NCBI RefSeq assembly: GCF_000153765.1
Contig: NZ_DS022294.1
Location: forward strand, 314,150 to 378,149
DNA from: Mariprofundus ferrooxydans PV-1
GTDB lineage: Bacteria; Pseudomonadota; Zetaproteobacteria; Mariprofundales; Mariprofundaceae
Direction: 5' to 3'
DNA length: 64,000 bases
Shown: in pieces, positions 1 to 10,054 of the stretch
How the letters are laid out: each line of letters opens with the position of its first letter
Numbering within the stretch: the first letter of the stretch is position 1
Position numbers and translations under genes: made by a program
The notes under the pieces: model-generated
The model's database searches: none
Told to the model about the DNA's origin: nothing
The model's input: only the letters and a program-made list of their open reading frames with translations

Positions 1-659
1 AGCTCATCAATCAAGGACTCGGAGATCTCACGCGCCTCATTGAGCAGGCCGAGATCCGTCGGAAAGCGGATCATCTGGTCGGCCACCGTCGCATCCATCA
101 GCAGCTTGCCATGGTGTGTCACGTCCTCTGCCTGCGCATCAACCGCATCAACCGGTGCCGGTCGATCCTGGTCGGACCCATCCCCGCAGGAAGAAGGAGG
201 TGACCCATCACCGCCGGACGTGCTGACCCGGGTTGGTTTCCGCTTCTTTTGGATATGCACCGCCCGATCCACTATCGCCTGCTCAAACGCATCAAACACT
301 TCCGCACCCATGCGCTTGCGTATCTCCACGAACAGGCTCGGAACAAACGGCGGTGCATCCACATATGCACCAAGGCCGCAAAAAAACTGGAGATAGGGGT
401 TCTCCTGGATCTGCAATACTGTCTCTTCATCGCTCAGGTTCAGCTTGTGCTTGATGATCAGCGCACCGATCACCAGACGCGCAGGCTTCGCAGGCCGACC
501 CTGCGTCGCGCTCATCACGGAATTGTAAGCCACGGCAAGATCATCCCAAGGCACAACCTCCGCCAGCTTCACCCAACGATTCTCAGAATTCAAATCACAT
601 CCAAATGGATGAATAAAGTCCTTCAACTGAAGTTGCCGGTCACTTGTCTCTCGTATCAT
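1..659 (-). CDS. IS5-superfamily transposase, N-terminal part (runs off left edge)
   Basis: Read on the minus strand, an open frame starts with ATG at 659 and continues to the window edge (about 219 codons). It begins MIRETSDRQLQLKDFI and contains the helical N-terminal domain typical of IS5-superfamily (DUF772-type) transposases, followed by a low-complexity Ser/Gly/Asp-rich linker. Near the edge the stretch HGKLLMDATVADQMIRFPTD carries the first acidic residue of the DDE catalytic triad. The rest of the catalytic domain lies outside the window, so activity cannot be judged. It sits about 105 bp inside the apparent end of its element, which truncates the type ISP gene fragment at 766-914. 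Confidence 0.8.
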   Translation of the reverse strand, partial: MIRETSDRQLQLKDFIHPFGCDLNSENRWVKLAEVVPWDDLAVAYNSVMSATQGRPAKPARLVIGALIIKHKLNLSDEETVLQIQENPYLQFFCGLGAYVDAPPFVPSLFVEIRKRMGAEVFDAFEQAIVDRAVHIQKKRKPTRVSTSGGDGSPPSSCGDGSDQDRPAPVDAVDAQAEDVTHHGKLLMDATVADQMIRFPTDLGLLNEAREISESLIDE

Positions 660-765
660 GTGCAAACCTTTTGCGCCAGATGCGCCCATTCCCTTGCACT
701 TCAGACTACCATGAACATCGCTTTGTCTCAATATATCAATGGGTTGTGACTTTTTGAGGGGAATC
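1..765 (-). mobile_element. Right-hand part of an IS5-like insertion sequence
   Basis: The transposase at 1-659 plus about 105 bp of upstream DNA form one end of an IS. The outer boundary is placed near 765 because type ISP coding sequence, readable on the minus strand, stops being recognisable at ...NTTPM and is replaced there by an in-frame stop. The opposite end is outside the window, so neither the terminal inverted repeat nor the target duplication could be checked, and the boundary may be off by a few bases. Confidence 0.6.
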
Positions 766-914
766 TACATAGGCGTTGTGTTCGGCAAGTGATTAAAAGG
801 GATGCTTTGAATGCTTTGATTGAACAGGAATTTATATTTTTTTGATCGTTCGCCATACAAATCAAAGTGATAAACACCTGCTAAACCCTCAGGCTTTTTC
901 TTGCCTGTTTTGAT
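766..914 (-). pseudogene. Second fragment of the type ISP restriction-modification gene
   Basis: Removing the IS4 element at 924-2202 and one copy of its 9-bp target duplication makes the minus-strand frame of the gene at 2203-4101 continue without a break into this stretch. It reads on as IKTGKKKPEGLAGVYHFDLY and ends NHLPNTTPM, which matches how type ISP methylases continue after their 'QGVSI' region. The coding sequence then stops at the IS5-like element, so the target-recognition C-terminus is missing from the window. The fragment shows that two insertions hit the same gene. Confidence 0.8.
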
Positions 915-923
915 AAGGAAATT
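915..923. repeat. Left target-site duplication of the IS4 element
   Basis: The 9-bp direct repeat AAGGAAATT lies immediately outside the left inverted repeat and recurs at 2203-2211 immediately outside the right one. This is the expected footprint of a single, still-bounded IS4-family insertion. Confidence 0.85.
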
Positions 924-2202
924 CACTGTTGTCCGGTTAAGCATTGATGAGGCACATTTGTCGCTGATTTATGGCGAATCGTCGCTTTGGCGGCGGTGGG
1001 GAATCAGCCAGCAATTCGAGCAAGTTTCGTCGCTGCATGAGGTTGACGGAAACGAGTCTCGCCAGTTGTTGCATGGATCGGCTTGCAGGCAGGATCCTTC
1101 TTGCCATGTGCAGCAGCAGATAGGCGATCATGGCAATGATAATCTGGATTTTGACAGCGTTCTCGGATGTGCCGATGAAGCGTTTGATCTTCAGGTTCTG
1201 TTTAATCCACCTGAAGAACAGTTCAATTTGCCAGCGCTGTTTGTACAGGGCTGCGATGGCTCCGGCGGAGCGCTTCAGGTCATTGGTGATAAAGACAAGC
1301 TTCTTGCCATCTTCCTCATGCACGAAGCAGATGCGGCGCAGGATGGTCGGACATTCCTTCCTGCCTTTGGCCGATGACAGACGGATATGCTGGTCTTCCA
1401 ATACACCGTCATCTGATACAGGGAGCGTTGCCACTACCTCGAATTCCGCGTTGCGCTTCATGCGGCTGACGAAGCGGATATCCCTTTGTGTCAGGTCATG
1501 GAACCATGCGTAATCGTTGTAGGCCCTGTCGAACACATAAGTGGCGCCGGGCAACAGGGGCATGTGCTCCGCAGCCTTCTTGTCATGCTTTTTGGCTGCG
1601 GTGATGGAAAAGAAGGTGGGAACCTGCGCATCAGGGTCATACACCGTATGCACCTTCACGCCCGATTTGCCGGTGCGGAAGCTCGCCCATTCAAACTGAT
1701 GCTTGCACAGGTCAATCGTCGTGGAGTCAATCAGCCGAACGGCATCCTTGCGGTGGATGCCCTTGCCGCGAAACTGATGCAAAAGCCAGTAAAACAGCTC
1801 CAGATACATGCCCGCAGAGCGCTTCACATTGGCATCAGCAAGCGTGGAACGCCTCACCGAGCCTGCTCCCAGGTGATAGTGCCTGCTGGCGTGACTTTCC
1901 CATGCCGAAACCACATCCCGCAGAGACTGCCGGGAGCAAAGCTGCGCATAGAGCATGACGCAAAACTGCGTCCAGCAGGACAAACTGCGGATACGCCTGT
2001 CACCATCATAACGCCTGACAACCTCCTCAAAACGGTGACGCGGAATCACTCTGAGCAATTGATGAAAAACCGTGTTAGCATGCTTCATGGTCTGAATTCT
2101 CCGGGGCGTAGATTTGCTGTCTCAATCACAATAAATCTACCATATCCCTTGGGAATTCAGACCTTTTTTTATCCCTCCGGATTCCTTAACCGGACAGCCG
2201 TG
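924..2202 (-). mobile_element. Complete IS4-family insertion sequence (1279 bp)
   Basis: Terminal inverted repeats of 18 bp with 16 identities bound the element: CACTGTTGTCCGGTTAAG at 924-941 and the complement of CACGGCTGTCCGGTTAAG at 2185-2202. It is flanked by the direct repeat AAGGAAATT and carries one intact transposase, so it looks structurally complete. The left inverted repeat overlaps the transposase stop codon. It is inserted between codons 633 and 634 of the type ISP gene, in the same orientation as that gene. Confidence 0.9.
937..2088 (-). CDS. IS4-family transposase
   Basis: This 383-residue transposase has an N-terminal DUF4372-like DNA-binding region (VFHQLLRVIPRHRFEEVVRR) and a DDE catalytic domain. 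The triad is visible: Asp in RLIDSTTIDL, Asp in YVFDRAYNDY, and Glu in YKQRWQIELFFRWIKQ, the last within the YREK-like signature of the IS4 family. Length is normal for the ISPepr1-like group and no internal stop is seen, so the protein is probably functional. It mobilises the element at 924-2202. No other complete copy was noticed in the window. Confidence 0.92.
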   Translation of the reverse strand: MKHANTVFHQLLRVIPRHRFEEVVRRYDGDRRIRSLSCWTQFCVMLYAQLCSRQSLRDVVSAWESHASRHYHLGAGSVRRSTLADANVKRSAGMYLELFYWLLHQFRGKGIHRKDAVRLIDSTTIDLCKHQFEWASFRTGKSGVKVHTVYDPDAQVPTFFSITAAKKHDKKAAEHMPLLPGATYVFDRAYNDYAWFHDLTQRDIRFVSRMKRNAEFEVVATLPVSDDGVLEDQHIRLSSAKGRKECPTILRRICFVHEEDGKKLVFITNDLKRSAGAIAALYKQRWQIELFFRWIKQNLKIKRFIGTSENAVKIQIIIAMIAYLLLHMARRILPASRSMQQLARLVSVNLMQRRNLLELLADSPPPPKRRFAINQRQMCLINA

Positions 2203-2211
2203 AAGGAAATT
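2203..2211. repeat. Right target-site duplication of the IS4 element
   Basis: AAGGAAATT directly abuts the right inverted repeat and is identical to 915-923. Confidence 0.85.
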
Positions 2212-4101
2212 AATTGAAACACCCTGTTGAATATCGAACACGTTCTCGTCTTTGCTGCCATCAGGCGAAACTTCTTTTTTCTTGCTGTTACCATGCAAAT
2301 CGATGGTATAAATCTTGTCGTAAGTCTTAAGCAAGTTCCAGCGCATGCCGCGAAAGGTCGGATTATCCAGAAAGCCATGTGGATTAATGAAAGCCAATAT
2401 GCCTTCGCCATTCTTTTCAATGAAGTGCTGGCCGTAGCGCATGAATTTCACATAATCATCATTAATCCATTTCGGATTGCGTTCTTTCAGTTTCTCTTTA
2501 CCACCGGGTTCCTTTTTATAATCCTCCATAAGCTTCATAATCCACTCACCCTTATTGGCGCTTTCACCACTGTACGGCGGATTACCCATCACTACCATCA
2601 CGGGGGTGTCGCGTTTGATATGATTGGCTTCATTGGCTTCGGTACTTAGCCATGAGGAAAAGAGCGTGCCTGTATCGGGATGATGCTCTTCCAGTGAATT
2701 GGTCAGATAAATGTTTAAGCGCTGTTCCTTATTGGCCACAAAGCCAGTATCACGCAGCAGCATATCCAGCTTTAGATGTGCCATGGCATAGGATGCCATC
2801 AACAGCTCAAAACCATTGAGGCGCGGAATCAGGTGTTCATCGACATAACTGCTCCATGCGCCTTGCATGGCTTTGAACTTGCCGTTGTATATGAATTTGA
2901 CCACTTCGGCCAAGAAGGTGCCCGTACCGGTGGCCGGATCAAGCACCTGAACCTTATGCACTTCTTTTTTCTGGATAAGCGGTTTGCCTTTGTTGCGCCC
3001 TTTGCTGATAGCCGCGCCTTGTACCTGTACTTCAATGGTGGTCTTGGAAGTATCCGCAAGTCCGTCTTTTAAGGCAAACTCGGTTTTCAGAATTTCATCG
3101 ACGCCGCGCACGATGAACGAAACTACCGGCTCCGGTGTGTACCAGACCCCCCTGGCTTTCCTTAGTTTTGGATCATATTCGGCCAGAAATGTCTCATAAA
3201 AATGGATGATCGGATCATGGGTTTGCGTGGCGCGTCCAAAATTCTTTAGCAGCGCCTTCACATCCGTGGCACGGAACACATCGGCAAGGTTGTCCACTGT
3301 GGTTTTGATACGCTCGTCAATATCGGCACCGGCTACATGATTGAACAGCTTGCGAAGAAAAGGATTGCTCTTGGGAATCAGCTCCGCTGCCTCCTGGCGG
3401 CTGAATGTATCCAGCGTATCATCATGCAGGCGGGCAGCGAACATGCCGTAGGCCAGTGTTTGCGCATAGATATCAGCGAATGCAGCAGGCTTTAGATCAT
3501 GGATCAGAACGTCCTTGAACGTTTTGAACTGCTGTTGCAGTGCCGTGTTATCCTGAGTCTGTTCATCGGAAGTAATTGCTTTTTCGAGGATGATTTGTAG
3601 CAGCCGAGCTTTGGCTGCCATCATGGAGGCCAGTTTTTTCGGTGAGCGAATCGTCTGACCGACAAATGTGCAGAAGTTCTGGAGCAGAGTGGTTAGTTCT
3701 ACAAAGTTGTCAGGAATCGGAATGACTCTGCCCTTTTCGATAGAGGCAATGCGAACTTCGTGTTCCAATTCCCCATTTTGAAAGAACTGAAAGCAGAGAT
3801 AATCCGTAATAATCAGGTTGTCCAGGGCCTTGCGATAACGATCAAATTGATCCTTGTAGGTTTTGCTGTTCAGGTCTTTTCCGATGTCTTTGGCTTCGAT
3901 AAAACCAACCGGAATATTTTTTCGGGTAATCACATAGTCCGGGTTGCCGCAGTCGGTTACCTGTGACGGTTCGTTGATGACTTCGATTTGAGGAACAAGT
4001 TCCCGTATCAGTGATTCAAGATCACCCCGGTAAGCATGTTCGCTGGCCATGCCAGAGATGTAGCGATTGTTAATCGTTTCAATGTACTGGCTCAGGCTCA
4101 T
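2203..4101 (-). pseudogene. Type ISP restriction-modification enzyme, N-terminal two thirds (IS-disrupted)
   Basis: The original frame starts at 4101 (MSLSQYIETINN) and gives 633 native residues. The ORF then runs about 21 codons into the IS4 element before a stop at 2137. An N-terminal Mrr-like nuclease region is seen around residues 50-75 (CGNPDYVITR, then GFIEAKD: D55 and E69-x-K71 of a PD-(D/E)xK site). The helical linker is followed by an adenine N6-methyltransferase domain with motif I DPATGTGTF at 388-396 and motif IV NPPY at 507-510. No helicase motifs are seen between nuclease and methylase, so the parent is a short ISP/type IIG-like enzyme. The target-recognition C-terminus is lost to two IS insertions. 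Residual methylation is unlikely without it. Confidence 0.85.
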
Positions 4102-4286
4102 GCATGTTCTCCTGAATGAAGTGTTTCGAGACTCTTAATATAAATTGGCGGCCTTCTCCCCGTAACCGCGACGCCATGGCTCAGATCCAGCACGGTCTCC
4201 AGCAGCCGGTACGGCACCCGTTGCGCAGCATTCACTGCATTATTCTTGTTCAGCCAGTTCAGAAGGGGCATGCAAGCACCCCGCAT
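4098..4286 (-). pseudogene. Start fragment of a type III-like DNA methyltransferase (mod)
   Basis: A 62-codon minus-strand ORF overlaps the type ISP start by 4 bp. Its MPLLNWLNKNNAVNAAQRVP (from about 4271) and following YRLLE resemble the opening of type III / beta-class adenine methylases, which normally reads MPxLNWIGK...VPYRLL and goes on to a GDNLxAL segment. Here similarity stops after about 25 residues and the tail (about residues 35-62) is unrelated, so the methylase body appears deleted. A new small functional protein cannot be ruled out. The family reading rests on a short match. Confidence 0.45.
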
Positions 4287-4449
4287 TCAGATTTCAACGA
4301 TCATCCCTCCACTCTTCACCCCCATACTGTGTCAGCAGAGTGGGTGCTTGCAAAGTATTTGCGCCATGATCCAGATGATTCAAGTTTTTTCCGGGTTGTC
4401 CGATAAAATGGACGAGCGCCTGTTTTGGCCCCTCTGGCCTGAAGAGCGC

Positions 4450-4500
4450 GCTTAGGCGTTTCTCTGCGAGAAACGGCGCGTAAGGGGCCAGCCCCTTAAC
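4450..4500 (+). other. oriT: Candidate oriT of the MobQ type
   Basis: An 8-bp perfect inverted repeat, CGTTTCTC (4457-4464) and GAGAAACG (4468-4475) with a 3-nt loop, is followed by GCGCGTAAGGGGCCAGCCCC. The layout closely resembles the RSF1010/R1162 oriT: a TTTCTC/GAGAAA hairpin, then a GTAA-G-rich stretch holding the nick site. It lies about 70 bp upstream of a relaxase of the matching MobA/MobL family in the same orientation. The nick position would fall near 4485-4492 by analogy; this is inference from the family. Confidence 0.7.
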
Positions 4501-4571
4501 CCCACCGCCTCACGGCGGCTTTTTATGACGTTATCTATTCAAAATTCTCCTGAAGGAGGAATGGATACGTC

Positions 4572-5912
4572 ATGGCCATATTTCACCTCTCGCTCAAAAT
4601 CGGAGCAAAGGGCAAGGCCGCCCCGCACTTCAACTACATCACCGCATCGGAAAAATATGCAGCCAGGCGCGGCGTGGTGCATCTCGAGCACGGCAATATG
4701 CCGCTATGGGCTGCCGCCAAGCCTGCTCTGTTCTGGCAGGCATCGGACGAGTTCGAGCGGGCCAATGGCACAGCCTATCGGGAGTTGGAGGTCTCTTTGC
4801 CCCGAGAGCTGCCGCTTGCGCAGCAGGTCGAGCTTGCCCGCCAGCTTGCAGAGGAAGCATGCGGTAACCAGCACGCCTTCAGCTTTGCCATTCACCATGC
4901 CAAAGCCAGCGATGGCGGCATGAATCCCCATGTGCACCTTCAGTTTTCCGAGCGTATTGACGATGGCATCGAGCGAGACCGGCAGCACTATTTCAAGCGT
5001 GCCAACAGGAAAGAGCCAGAGAAAGGCGGCTGTGCAAAGGACAGAAGCTGGCAGGCCAGTAAGCGCGGCAAGCAGAAGGTCGCCGAATCAAGCGAGCGCC
5101 TGCTGGACATTCGCAAAAACTGGGAAACGATGTGTAACAAGGCGCTGGCAGAATTCGGCAGTGATGCCCGCATCGACCACCGCAGCCATGAGGCGCGCGA
5201 GATAGAAACCGCTCCACAGCCCAAGGTGGGCGCGAAGTCGTGGCATCTGTTCCGGCGCACCGGTGAGAAGAACGAGCGCTATTGTCGCTGGGAACAGGTC
5301 ATCGCCAGCAACAACGCCATTATCACCAGCGCTGCCAGCAAGCCATCCGCGCAGGAGCGCTATCACGATGCCATGCAGGAACTGCAAACCGTGCAGCGCC
5401 AGCTTGCAGCCCTTCAGCCTGTTCGCAGACCGGACAAGTCAGCCATCCTCAGGCGCATTGCCGAGAATCAAAAGCGTGTCAGGCGACTGGATGATGAGAT
5501 ATGGCAGCTTGAGCATAACACCATCCACAAAGCCTATGACGCGATGGTGAATGCCCGATGCAGGCGCGATGCTGGCAGCAATTTCTTCATGCGAGCATGG
5601 AACCGCTTTTACTATGGCGGCGACTATGTCCGCCTCACTGATGCTTATGAGAAGGTGCTGAAGCGGAAGGCTGACAAGACCAGAGAGCGCAACAACCTGA
5701 TTGAACGTATTTGCCAAAACCCGAAGGCACAAGCCAAGGCTTCCGCCGATTACGCAAGGCAGGCAAAGGAGTATCAAGCCTATATCCGGCGCAAGGTCGA
5801 ACTGGAGCGGGATTTGCAGTCAGCGCAAAGACAGGTGCAAGCCTGCAAACGATTGTTGCCACAGGCGCAGACGCAGCGCCGGAATGACGCTGGCCTGCAT
5901 CTGACCATATAG
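4572..5912 (+). CDS. mobA: MobA/MobL-family relaxase
   Basis: This 446-residue protein would nick at oriT and pilot the strand during mobilization by a helper conjugation system. The N-terminal relaxase domain is recognisable: MAIFHLSLKIG strand, an early conserved Tyr in FNYITASEKYA, a histidine in AFSFAIHHAKASDGG, and the metal-binding NPHVHLQFSER (HxH). The C-terminal half is a long charged helical region (about residues 270-440) rich in Gln, Arg and Lys. It lacks the primase domain found in the IncQ fusion protein. An AAGGAGG lies 11 nt before the ATG. No mating-pair-formation genes are visible, so the element is mobilizable rather than self-transmissible as far as the window shows. Confidence 0.9.
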   Translation: MAIFHLSLKIGAKGKAAPHFNYITASEKYAARRGVVHLEHGNMPLWAAAKPALFWQASDEFERANGTAYRELEVSLPRELPLAQQVELARQLAEEACGNQHAFSFAIHHAKASDGGMNPHVHLQFSERIDDGIERDRQHYFKRANRKEPEKGGCAKDRSWQASKRGKQKVAESSERLLDIRKNWETMCNKALAEFGSDARIDHRSHEAREIETAPQPKVGAKSWHLFRRTGEKNERYCRWEQVIASNNAIITSAASKPSAQERYHDAMQELQTVQRQLAALQPVRRPDKSAILRRIAENQKRVRRLDDEIWQLEHNTIHKAYDAMVNARCRRDAGSNFFMRAWNRFYYGGDYVRLTDAYEKVLKRKADKTRERNNLIERICQNPKAQAKASADYARQAKEYQAYIRRKVELERDLQSAQRQVQACKRLLPQAQTQRRNDAGLHLTI

Positions 5913-5976
5913 CATCCGTTATGCTGCGAGCAGTGCCTGATTCCGCCCGTGATTCACCAAAACAAGCCGGTACAGA

Positions 5977-6231
5977 CTACAGAACACCGAACATGCACTG
6001 CACGTCCACCATGATGATGACGACCGACAGATATTCTCCAGCCTTTGCAGCATGCACAGTCCACGGCTGTTCGGGCTTTGCCTTGGGAGCAAGGCTTCTT
6101 CTGGCTTTTTCCACCAGAGCGCAAACGCACTGGCTGCGATTCATGCCTCTGCGGGCAGCCATTCGGTCTATCCAGTTGTACAGTTCAACGGGCATCCGGA
6201 TGCCGGATGATTTTGTGGGTGGTTTGGGCAT
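5977..6231 (-). CDS. Small ribbon-helix-helix protein
   Basis: This 84-residue protein has a ribbon-helix-helix pattern near its start: the strand SSGIRMPVELYNWIDRMA leads into two helices (ELYNWIDRMAARRGM, NRSQCVCALVEKARRS). Such proteins usually act as DNA-binding repressors or relaxosome accessory factors. An AGGAGAATCTT ribosome-binding context precedes the ATG. Lying between the relaxase and the recombinase, it may regulate transfer or excision. The C-terminal 35 residues match nothing recognised. Confidence 0.6.
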   Translation of the reverse strand: MPKPPTKSSGIRMPVELYNWIDRMAARRGMNRSQCVCALVEKARRSLAPKAKPEQPWTVHAAKAGEYLSVVIIMVDVQCMFGVL

Positions 6232-6332
6232 AAGATTCTCCTGTTACTTTCTCCAGCATATCGGCGCAAACAGGGGATAACTTGAGGCCATCCCCTGTGC
6301 ACGCCTTGTGCATCATAGAAAATCCGCCCGTC

Positions 6333-7958
6333 TCAACCAGAAGAAGCAGTGCTACATGTCAGCGCCTCTTTCAGCCCCTTCAGGCCGTGGTTTACCAGTT
6401 CCGCCCGGGCAAGCAGCGCTTCCGCCTCCCGGTTCGCTTCGGTGATAATCACACCGGCCTGACCGGTGGAGGCAACTTCATAGATAACCCCTTGCTCGAA
6501 GAAGTAGAGGCACAGCCCCGCATCACGAAAGGCGGCATTGATTCGGGCTCGCAGCTCATACAGTGCGGCATCCTGTTTCTTGCGGTAGCGCAAATCGAAG
6601 ATGGCCGCCGATAATCTGTCCACACGCTCCTGCACCGGCGAGAAGGTGCGCAGCTCTGCCTCTTTCGACTCAATGGCAAGCCGCAGTTCATCGGCTGCCT
6701 GCATGGCCTTCATATACCGGTTCCGCGCATCGGTCAGCATCGCACCATCGGCCATGCTGAACAGTTCGGCAAAGCGTTCGACCTGTTTCTCCGTATCGGC
6801 CAGCCTGCCGCGCAGGATGGACAGTTCCGATTCCAGCGCCTGCCGGTTGTTGGTGTGACCGCCAAGGGCTGAGAACCAGTCCACCTTGTTACTCAAAGCC
6901 ACCAGTGCGGCGGCCTCTACTTCCCTGTAGCGCCAGCGCTTGTCACACGCGCACCCGTTCGACATATAGTTGCTGTTGCAGCGGAACATATGCAAGCGAC
7001 CGTTCCTTATCAGGCGGTAGGTGGTACCGCATGCCCAGCACTTGCACATGCCGGTAAACAGGTTGGTGAACTTCAGCCCCTTTCGCCCAGCCGATGCCGG
7101 GTTTTGCCGACTGACCCGCGCGGACTGCGCCTTGTAAAACAACTCCTCGCTGACAACGGCAGGATAATAGTCGGCAATCGCCTCGCCAATCGGCTCTCCC
7201 TTCTGCTTCGGCTGATATTCACCAATGACCGATTTGCTGCGGATAATCTTGGCAATATAGGAGGAATGCCACATGTCGCCACCGTTGAAGGTGGGCACGC
7301 CGCGCTCGTTCAGGTTTGCGGCAATCTTGCGTTGGCCGGTTCCGGCGATGCTCTGCCGAAAAATATCGCGGATAATCTCGGCGCGTTCCTCAATCACCTC
7401 GAAGCGGGCTTTGTCATCAGACAGGCGTAGCCACCGTGGGCATTGGCCGGTCATCGGGCGTTTACCCTCAATTGCCAACTTACGCCGGTTCTCCCAACTG
7501 GCGGCAAGGCGTTTGGACTTCACCGCTGATTCCTCATGGCTGCGGCTCATGGAAATCAGGCTGAACATGAGCTGGCCGACATCGTTGATGCTCTCGGCGG
7601 TGTAGTGCTGGTTATCCGCCAGCGTCACAATCTCGATACCAGCGGACAGGATAGAAGAAAACAGCCCCAGCGCGGTGAACACCTGCTGGCGTGATAGTCT
7701 GTCCAGACTCTCCAGAATCAGCACCGAACCTTTCTCGATGCGACCGGCTTCGACCAGCTCGATGAACTTCTTCAATGCGCCTTCGGTGGCGTTCTTCCCC
7801 TTGAATGCACTGACGCCAATATCGCGCAGGGAATCATCCAGAATCATGTTGTGCGCTTCGGCATAGGCGCGGCTGGCCTCAAGCTGGCGGCGCAGGCTGT
7901 CACCCTTCAACTGCTGCGGGCTGGAAAATCGAATGTAGGAATAGGCTTTCTTTTGCAT
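6333..7958 (-). CDS. Large serine recombinase (site-specific integrase)
   Basis: This 541-residue protein has the three parts of a large serine integrase. The resolvase catalytic domain shows YIRFSSPQQ (nucleophile Ser12) and ESLDRLSRQQ with the catalytic arginines. The recombinase domain follows (GQRKIAANLNERGVPTFNGG). A zinc-ribbon region contains CKCWACGTTY and a later CNSN/CACD pair, then a coiled coil at about 370-450. A strong AAGGAGCC site precedes the ATG. The gene starts about 70 bp from the point where host kinase sequence breaks, the usual position for an integrase next to its att site. It probably inserted, and could excise, the whole element. Confidence 0.88.
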   Translation of the reverse strand: MQKKAYSYIRFSSPQQLKGDSLRRQLEASRAYAEAHNMILDDSLRDIGVSAFKGKNATEGALKKFIELVEAGRIEKGSVLILESLDRLSRQQVFTALGLFSSILSAGIEIVTLADNQHYTAESINDVGQLMFSLISMSRSHEESAVKSKRLAASWENRRKLAIEGKRPMTGQCPRWLRLSDDKARFEVIEERAEIIRDIFRQSIAGTGQRKIAANLNERGVPTFNGGDMWHSSYIAKIIRSKSVIGEYQPKQKGEPIGEAIADYYPAVVSEELFYKAQSARVSRQNPASAGRKGLKFTNLFTGMCKCWACGTTYRLIRNGRLHMFRCNSNYMSNGCACDKRWRYREVEAAALVALSNKVDWFSALGGHTNNRQALESELSILRGRLADTEKQVERFAELFSMADGAMLTDARNRYMKAMQAADELRLAIESKEAELRTFSPVQERVDRLSAAIFDLRYRKKQDAALYELRARINAAFRDAGLCLYFFEQGVIYEVASTGQAGVIITEANREAEALLARAELVNHGLKGLKEALTCSTASSG

Positions 7959-7991
7959 ATCATCGGCTCCTTCTTTGGCGAGCCTTACCGT

Positions 7992-9872
7992 TTATCGGCA
8001 GAAACTCGCGCTAATGTAGCCGAAGTATTTGAAATCGTGCGCAATGCCGCCAACCAGCGTACCGACCGCCTCCATTTTCTGGGCCTGCAGAAACTGATCC
8101 TCCAGCCTCTTGTATTCGCTCATGTCCTGCTGCAGCGAGACATAATGCGTCACCTCGCCGACATCATCATGAATCGGAGCCACACTCATCATGGCCGGAT
8201 AGAAGGTGCCGTCCTTGCGCCGGTCAACCAGCGTACCGTGCCAGACATGCCCCTCACTGATCGTGCGCCATAACTCCGTATAAAACTGCGGGTCCTGGGC
8301 CTCACTCTTGAGCATAGAGGGCGTATTGCCGATGGCCTCCTCCTCACTGTATCCGGTGATTGAGGTAAAGGCCGGATTCACATATTCAATCACCGCATTA
8401 CGATCGGTAATCACTACCGCCTCATCGGTTTCTGTAATTGCCTTGAGCAATTTCCTCTGTATCTCCTGAGCCTTTACCTGCTCTGACAAGTCGCGGATCA
8501 TGACCGTCATGACGACTTCATCTCCGATGACCTGCTTGGATATCGATGACTCCATGGGGAACTCTTCGCCGTCATAACGCCGTCCGACCATACCGGCCCT
8601 GCGGTGAATCAGCGGCTGGTCACTCCTGACCATGAAGCGCTCAACCAGTGCACGATGGCTGACATGAAAACGTTCGGGGATGAGCATTTCGACATGCTCG
8701 CCCACGATATCAGCGGCAGTGATGCCAAACATCTCCTCGGCAGCCTTGTTGAACAAAATCACCTGCTGCGCTGCATTGATCGAGACAATTGCATCGTCAG
8801 CCATTTCGACGATGCCCGAGAAGCGCATCCGGCTCTCCAATAGTTCATTTTCAGCTTTCTTATGCTCCGTAATATTCTCGGCAATACCCACAATACGCAC
8901 AACATCGCCATCTTCATTTGATACCCTGAAAGCACGGGCATATATCCACCGCTCTGACCCGTCCGGCAGCTGAATCCTGTATTCCGGAAACCGTATTTTC
9001 TCCACACCGCTGTTGATACAATCGTCGATGGCTTCGAGTACCTGAGCCTTATCTTCATCGACTATTGAATCGATCCACTGCATCGGATTGGCATACAGAC
9101 TTTCACAGGAGCGTCCCCAGAGCTTTTCATAATTCGGGCTGATATAGTGAATTTCACTCCAGTCCGGAGAGCCAACCCAGAACACTTCATCGATATTTTC
9201 TACCAGTTCCCGAAAACGTTCGCGGCTCTCTAGCAGGTCATCTTCCGCCCGCTTGCGTTCGCTAATGTTTTCAAAAATCACACCAACCGATTGCTCGGGT
9301 AACGCAAATGCCCGAATCGAGAAGATAGATTGCTTAATCCTTTTATCGCCATATGTTATCTCATCAATAGTGAACGACTTGCCCGTGCGAACCACGTCAG
9401 CATATTTACGGGGCAGATCAAGCGCACGAATATCGGGAAAAGCCTGATCAATAGTCAGGCCAACGAGCTTGCCGATATTCGCGCTGGTAAATTCCGATGC
9501 TGCCGGATTTGCTCTTTTCAGTCGCAATGTCCGGTCATCATCGATCTTCTCCAGCTGGTAAACAACCAGAGCAACCTGCATATTATTGATAATATCATGG
9601 ATATAAGCGTCAGATTTCTGCGCCAGATCACTCGCGCGCTCCGCCTCCCGCCAACGGCGGTAAGCGAACCAGGCAGCGGCCAGCGACATGAACAGCAGTA
9701 CAGCAAGCAGTTCATCATCCCCCCACCGAACAGAGGAGTTGGCGGCATCATGCAAATAGGCGAACAGCTTAAAATAAACCCCGGCCCCCCACATTGAAAC
9801 AACCGTGACGACGGCAATCATCAAATCGCTGCGATAACGACTCTGACGCCTTTTCTTCTCTGGTTCAGTCAT
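7992..9872 (-). pseudogene. Multi-PAS histidine kinase, truncated at the H-box by element insertion
   Basis: About 615 native residues remain, starting from ATG at 9872. Two N-terminal membrane helices (about 18-40 and 55-72) are followed by four PAS domains, with recognisable linkers such as VGVIFENISERKRAEDD, GIAENITEHKKAENEL and YVSLQQDMSEYKRLEDQF. The start of the HisKA helix (QKMEAVGTLVGGIAHDF) keeps the phosphoacceptor His, but the frame ends 12 codons later in foreign sequence. The dimerisation helix remainder and the ATPase domain are absent. It was probably a membrane sensor kinase. The missing 3' part is expected left of the window, beyond the mobile element. Confidence 0.85.
8026..8036. 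other. Element-chromosome junction (attR side) in the kinase H-box
   Basis: Kinase codons read normally through GTLVGGIAHDF and then switch to an unrelated frame (KYFGYISASFCR stop), where this kinase class continues with NNLL. The switch lies at about 8028-8031. Directly outside is the serine recombinase gene. The shared crossover bases should be within GATTTCAA as read on the minus strand, but the exact core needs the other end, which is outside the window. Confidence 0.65.
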
Positions 9873-10054
9873 CAATACAACTGCTCATTCCGCATAATAC
9901 AACCCCTGCCCGGACTGCCTGTTTTCAGCGCCTCTGAACTTGAGCAATATCAGTGCCAATAAAAACGTTATACGGGCTGATGTCTACTCCCCCTATCCTG
10001 CACGGGGGGACGAAAAAGAAAAAGGGCACTGTTTACTCGCAATGATGAAGCCGG

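Follow-up and report, generated by a model that had tools for sequence, protein, structure and literature searches.

We analysed a 64,000-nt stretch (the window, G000:C4:314150-378149) of the genome of Mariprofundus ferrooxydans PV-1, from a group of marine iron-oxidising bacteria. It very probably holds one end of an integrative mobilizable element whose serine integrase uses H-box codons of PAS-type histidine kinases as the attB partner of its attP. Such insertions are recurrent. We identified at least 11 of them in eight Mariprofundaceae genomes, all between GGIAHDF and NN in the H-box; the count comprises ten distinct kinase-element junctions next to the integrase clade and an extra right end in genome G025. 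Hence, the initial annotation of the window, which proposed that conserved H-box codons make a reliable attB, was right on this point, and the finding is larger than it stated: the mobilizable elements form a family that is specialised for the codons of a catalytic motif shared by paralogous genes.

An element inside the H-box of a histidine kinase gene

The kinase ORF (window 7992-9875, minus strand) is native up to ...TLVGGIAHDF and then reads KYFGYISASFCR*, i.e. 12 codons of element DNA that show no codon-position bias. Before the break, the minus-strand frame reads ...QAQKMEAVGTLVGGIAHDF. Positions 7992-8040 correspond to the element-encoded tail, the core and the final codons of GGIAHDF, whose full set of codons is at 8031-8051. 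In the 5' part of the kinase, the Pfam scan revealed PAS domains and no HATPase. The ATG of the integrase gene lies 71 bp beyond the crossover core. The features of this region are listed in table 1.

Table 1. Features of the window at the end of element 1 (window positions).
Feature	Position	Strand	Basis or remark
Multi-PAS hybrid histidine kinase, 5' part, native through GGIAHDF	8031..9875	-	ORF, Pfam, codon position, alignment to uninterrupted relatives
attL: kinase CACGATTTC, core AA (8029-8030), element arm ATACTTCGGCTACATTAG	8011..8039	-	
Tail of the interrupted kinase frame, encoded by the element (KYFGYISASFCR*)	7992..8028	-	All forward elements have a similar tail
Hairpin predicted over the ribosome-binding site of the integrase gene	7965..7984	-	Without covariation support
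Large serine integrase, 541 aa; Resolvase, Recombinase and Zn-ribbon domains	6333..7958	-	Pfam and relatives
Small 84-aa protein, conserved beside the integrase (also in E2 and G010), without Pfam match	5977..6231	-	
MobA/MobL (MOBQ-type) relaxase	4572..5912	+	
N6-adenine DNA methylase-like protein, cargo; end abuts transposase gene	2137..4101	-	
DDE transposase (DUF4372 type), IS within element 1	937..2088	-	
Element 1, portion inside the window; continues left to G000:C4:290601	1..8030	.	

The missing half of the kinase (NNMLA..., HATPase, receiver) is located 23.5 kb left of the window. A genome-wide HATPase search retrieved a short frame in the region around 290.6 kb (C4:289949-290317, minus strand), which reads D*PMWPNMNNMLAALQGNVYLAKSR..., i.e. 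the remainder of the kinase after GGIAHDF, including NN, the HATPase and the receiver. This 3' half has the orientation of the 5' half and directly adjoins GACCAATGTGGCCCAATATG, the other end of the element (element 1, E1). From core to core, element 1 spans C4:290601-322179 (31.58 kb). It includes two stretches of N (C4:295188-312336, 17 kb, and 314030-314149), and its continuity across the 17 kb of N rests on the assembly. The joined flanks give back the exact reading frame of the kinase, and the rejoined protein aligns in one piece to uninterrupted kinases of the genus (56% over 985 positions for L130, 61% over 840 for L125), which are the nearest by sequence rather than synteny-defined orthologs. 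The uninterrupted relatives in which the H-box was read run through GGIAHDFNN and lack the foreign tail. The two ends and these relatives bear out what had been proposed from the window sequence: a serine-integrase element within the H-box, a kinase that is native to GGIAHDF and foreign right after (a junction that recurs in other genomes), a large serine recombinase about 70 bp from the break, and another kinase half beyond the left edge.

A hairpin is predicted at the integrase ribosome-binding site in all eight forward elements and in neither of the two reverse ones (see below). We considered that translation of the integrase might be coupled to the broken kinase frame, and dropped this idea because the hairpin pairs covary no more than shuffles. 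It is further weakened by the lack of codon-position bias in the tail and by a similar arrangement in a relative located outside H-boxes.

The same codon is hit in different kinases and genomes

A junction of AHDF with DNA whose end is TTCGGCTACATTAG is found beside integrase relatives in other genomes and for a second time in PV-1. The latter case, element 2 (E2; C4:623929-635190, 11.3 kb), encodes an integrase protein 70% identical to that of element 1 and disrupts another kinase at the codon that element 1 occupies in its own target. The two target kinases have 32% identity over 166 aa, and outside the H-box peptide the targets are down to 27-32% identical (often about 30%). The H-box sequence is common to at least 17 PV-1 genes, of which 15 have an intact GCNCAYGAYTTYAAYAAY site (one of them inside element 2) and two are occupied. 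As a consequence, the genome offers many equivalent landing sites. Element 2 also encodes a complete histidine kinase (G000:C4:631673-634309; L015:17674 into L016), with an intact GGIAHDFNN and adjoining a PstS-like gene. It breaks one kinase yet brings another, together with a potential attB.

Beyond PV-1, GGIAHDF is followed by the K of the element at loci L039 (Mariprofundus sp. EBB-1, G010:C26), L040 (G025:C48), L041 (G208), L042 (G019:C10), L043 (G263) and L073 (G014:C79). Two further elements, L060 (G019:C41) and L061 (G011:C1), are in reverse, their integrase side being joined to the kinase 3' half. In G025, the same element end is found on two different kinase 3' halves, so this genome has at least two copies. 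The elements with both ends read vary in size: 31.6 kb (E1), 11.3 kb (E2), 8.6 kb (L042), 26.4 kb (G010:C26) and 17.6 kb (G011, reverse). Some loci show signs of decay or of later insertions. The G014:C79 locus (L073:7827 onward) is a remnant whose left end, in the H-box of a kinase, is intact but is followed by no full-length integrase frame. The target kinase of the G010 element, already split, is additionally broken by about 550 bp of unrelated sequence (L081:4110-4660, G010:C26) that resemble a small IS200-type insertion. We found close relatives of the integrase in Mariprofundaceae only; among 398 sampled Pseudomonadota genomes, the best match outside this family (G286) has no kinase H-box nearby.

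Attachment sites and orientation

With both ends of element 1 combined, the rebuilt attP reads GACCAATGTGGCCCAATATG-AA-ATACTTCGGCTACATTAGC, with imperfectly inverted arms around AA, and this 2-bp core is common to attP and attB. We made such reconstructions with core AA for E1, E2, L042, G010 and the G025 pairings, the latter combining the attL and attRs of separate contigs, and with core TT for G011. Over all of them, 11-15 of 24 arm positions are symmetric, which was equalled by 0 to 49 of 2000 shuffles. In G011, the only one of the two known reverse elements for which both ends were read, the arms are in the same register around the TT core. Published work on engineered sites shows that orientation is set by the core alone (PMC3556126; PMC3783163). 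Following this rule, TT would cause reverse insertion at the same attB, and the AA/TT contrast between forward and reverse elements is a natural counterpart of it. Wherever an insertion is forward, the far attP arm puts an in-frame ATG just before NN, such that the kinase 3' half could be translated alone. This ATG may also simply reflect a binding preference of the integrase.

The integrase and the gene content of the elements

The integrase of element 1 matches PF00239, PF07508 and PF13408, the latter just under the cut-off, and no match to DUF4368 was found in the Pfam scan. It has the domains of large serine integrases, along with the Ser of Y-x-R-x-S and the long C-terminus; the catalytic motif is YIRFS, with R10 and S12 invariant across 15 sequences. 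The reverse pair of integrases clusters with that of element 1 (100/99). The tree is compatible with a single origin of H-box targeting. The corresponding branch is weakly supported, and the H-box-using integrases may not form one clean group. Integrases of the same genera with at most 65% identity are in a transporter-like gene or in intergenic positions. Two more distant integrases from two genomes, with 49-54% identity (L064, G019:C54; L065, G011:C1 2.31 Mb), share one position in a membrane-transporter-like gene, a second shared target site.

Among the five elements with both ends known, four (E1, E2, L042 and G011) encode a MobA/MobL relaxase, and in these the integrase and the relaxase lie within one unit of defined ends. 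They are therefore integrative mobilizable elements. We found no relaxase among the annotated frames of the G010 element, part of which were scanned. Conjugation (T4SS) genes were absent from the scanned frames of E2 and L042; element 1 holds 17 kb of N. The cargo differs between elements. Element 1 encodes an N6 methylase, AlbA_2 and Abi_alpha proteins. The methylase-like gene directly adjoins, with its 3' end, the DUF4372/DDE transposase gene, and may have been truncated by this IS. Besides the kinase and the PstS-like protein, element 2 encodes an AAA protein and two phosphatase-like proteins. The L042 element carries an MmeI-type enzyme, the one in G010 a polysaccharide cluster with a kinase and regulators, and the one in G011 kinases and receiver-type proteins.

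Proposed mechanism and alternative explanations

In the scenario that we favour, the circular form of the element would enter the cell by conjugation using helper machinery. The element's integrase, the putative catalyst, would then exchange strands at the AA core, directly after the Phe codon that precedes NN. Integration would split the kinase, the sensor part retaining the phospho-acceptor His while the HATPase and the receiver stay behind the far end of the element. Since the acceptor His and the ATPase would be on separate products, the split kinase should not autophosphorylate, and we infer a loss of kinase function with effects on signalling. Excision would restore the kinase gene exactly, and the core region of the excised circle is predicted to read ...CCAATGTGGCCCAATATG-AA-ATACTTCGGCTACATTAG... 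A more speculative extension is that the elements, which have a multi-copy attB in a regulatory family, rewire two-component signalling of the host by landing in different kinases and bringing kinases and response regulators of their own (E2, G010, G011), and that the severed HATPase-receiver half may still be produced. We regard this as rather unlikely.

The exact frame obtained by joining the flanks would also be expected from a programmed intervening element, of the sigK or comK type, whose regulated excision restores the kinase when the host needs it. This is improbable, because different kinases are hit in different genomes, and hence there is no conserved switch gene. Moreover, some copies are decayed (in G014 the frame beside attL is no longer an intact integrase), the target kinase in G010 is broken by the insertion of about 550 bp, and the element-encoded tail lacks codon-position bias. 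Even less probable is a prophage or a phage satellite with a serine integrase directed at the H-box. Such integrases are common in phages, where distant relatives of this one are found, but IMG/VR has no relatives of it, the matches in plasmids and phages concern the integrase only and are all under 60% identity (far under in phages), and the rebuilt attP region had zero matches in the plasmid search. Phage structural genes are absent among the annotated frames of E2 and of the L042 element, and relaxase genes are carried instead. Finally, a natural end or decay of the kinase by truncation or rearrangement, with the integrase as a chance neighbour, is permitted only by the single junction of the window taken alone, and it is refuted by the far kinase half beside the other arm, the uninterrupted relatives and the repetition of the junction in many kinases, such that we give it practically no credit.

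Comparison with known systems

Most site-specific integrases use one site per genome. The integrative mobilizable elements described here have a strict integrase with many equivalent sites because the target codes for a catalytic motif that a kinase can scarcely alter and still function. H-box targeting explains the presence of several copies per genome and predicts which genes get hit. It also connects the spreading of a mobile element with the loss of individual signalling proteins. The association of a site-specific serine integrase with a relaxase is of a known kind. What appears to be new is the target: the codons of a catalytic motif, common to a family of paralogous genes, that serve as a multi-copy attB. 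Literature searches of the main text of open papers retrieved no report of integration in H-boxes. Histidine kinases are unmentioned in a review of integrative mobilizable elements (PMC5704250), as are kinases in the main text of a survey of large serine recombinases (PMC10083194), and the one actinobacterial ICE paper that matched the search words has the kinase in a figure legend only.

A close parallel is with the streptococcal elements integrated in rumA, which also have one serine integrase, a relaxase and very short terminal direct repeats, and disrupt a dispensable gene (PMC5704250). In their case each genome has a single site in a single gene, whereas the Mariprofundus elements use a motif of many paralogous kinases and reach at least two copies per genome. 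Multiple targets are also known for the Tn4451/TndX-like recombinases, where related integrases hit more than three unrelated clusters of target genes (PMC10083194, PMC5704250). That clade shows relaxed specificity and DUF4368, the latter in 63% of its members (PMC10083194), while the kinase-targeting integrase has neither: all junctions of the clade are at one codon of one motif, and the multiplicity of H-box sites comes from the repetition of the motif in the genome. The integrase of the Vibrio cholerae PLE is also a large serine recombinase with a repeated host sequence, the VCR, as attB (PMC6002521). VCRs are non-coding integron repeats, whereas the repeat in Mariprofundus is a coding catalytic motif, and insertion breaks the gene. 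Lastly, the pseudo-palindromic attP, the 2-bp core and the orientation decided by this core are shared with the integrases of Bxb1, phiC31 and A118 (PMC3783163, PMC3556126). In these the change of polarity was made in the laboratory, whereas a Mariprofundus lineage appears to have been reversed naturally, with TT in place of AA.
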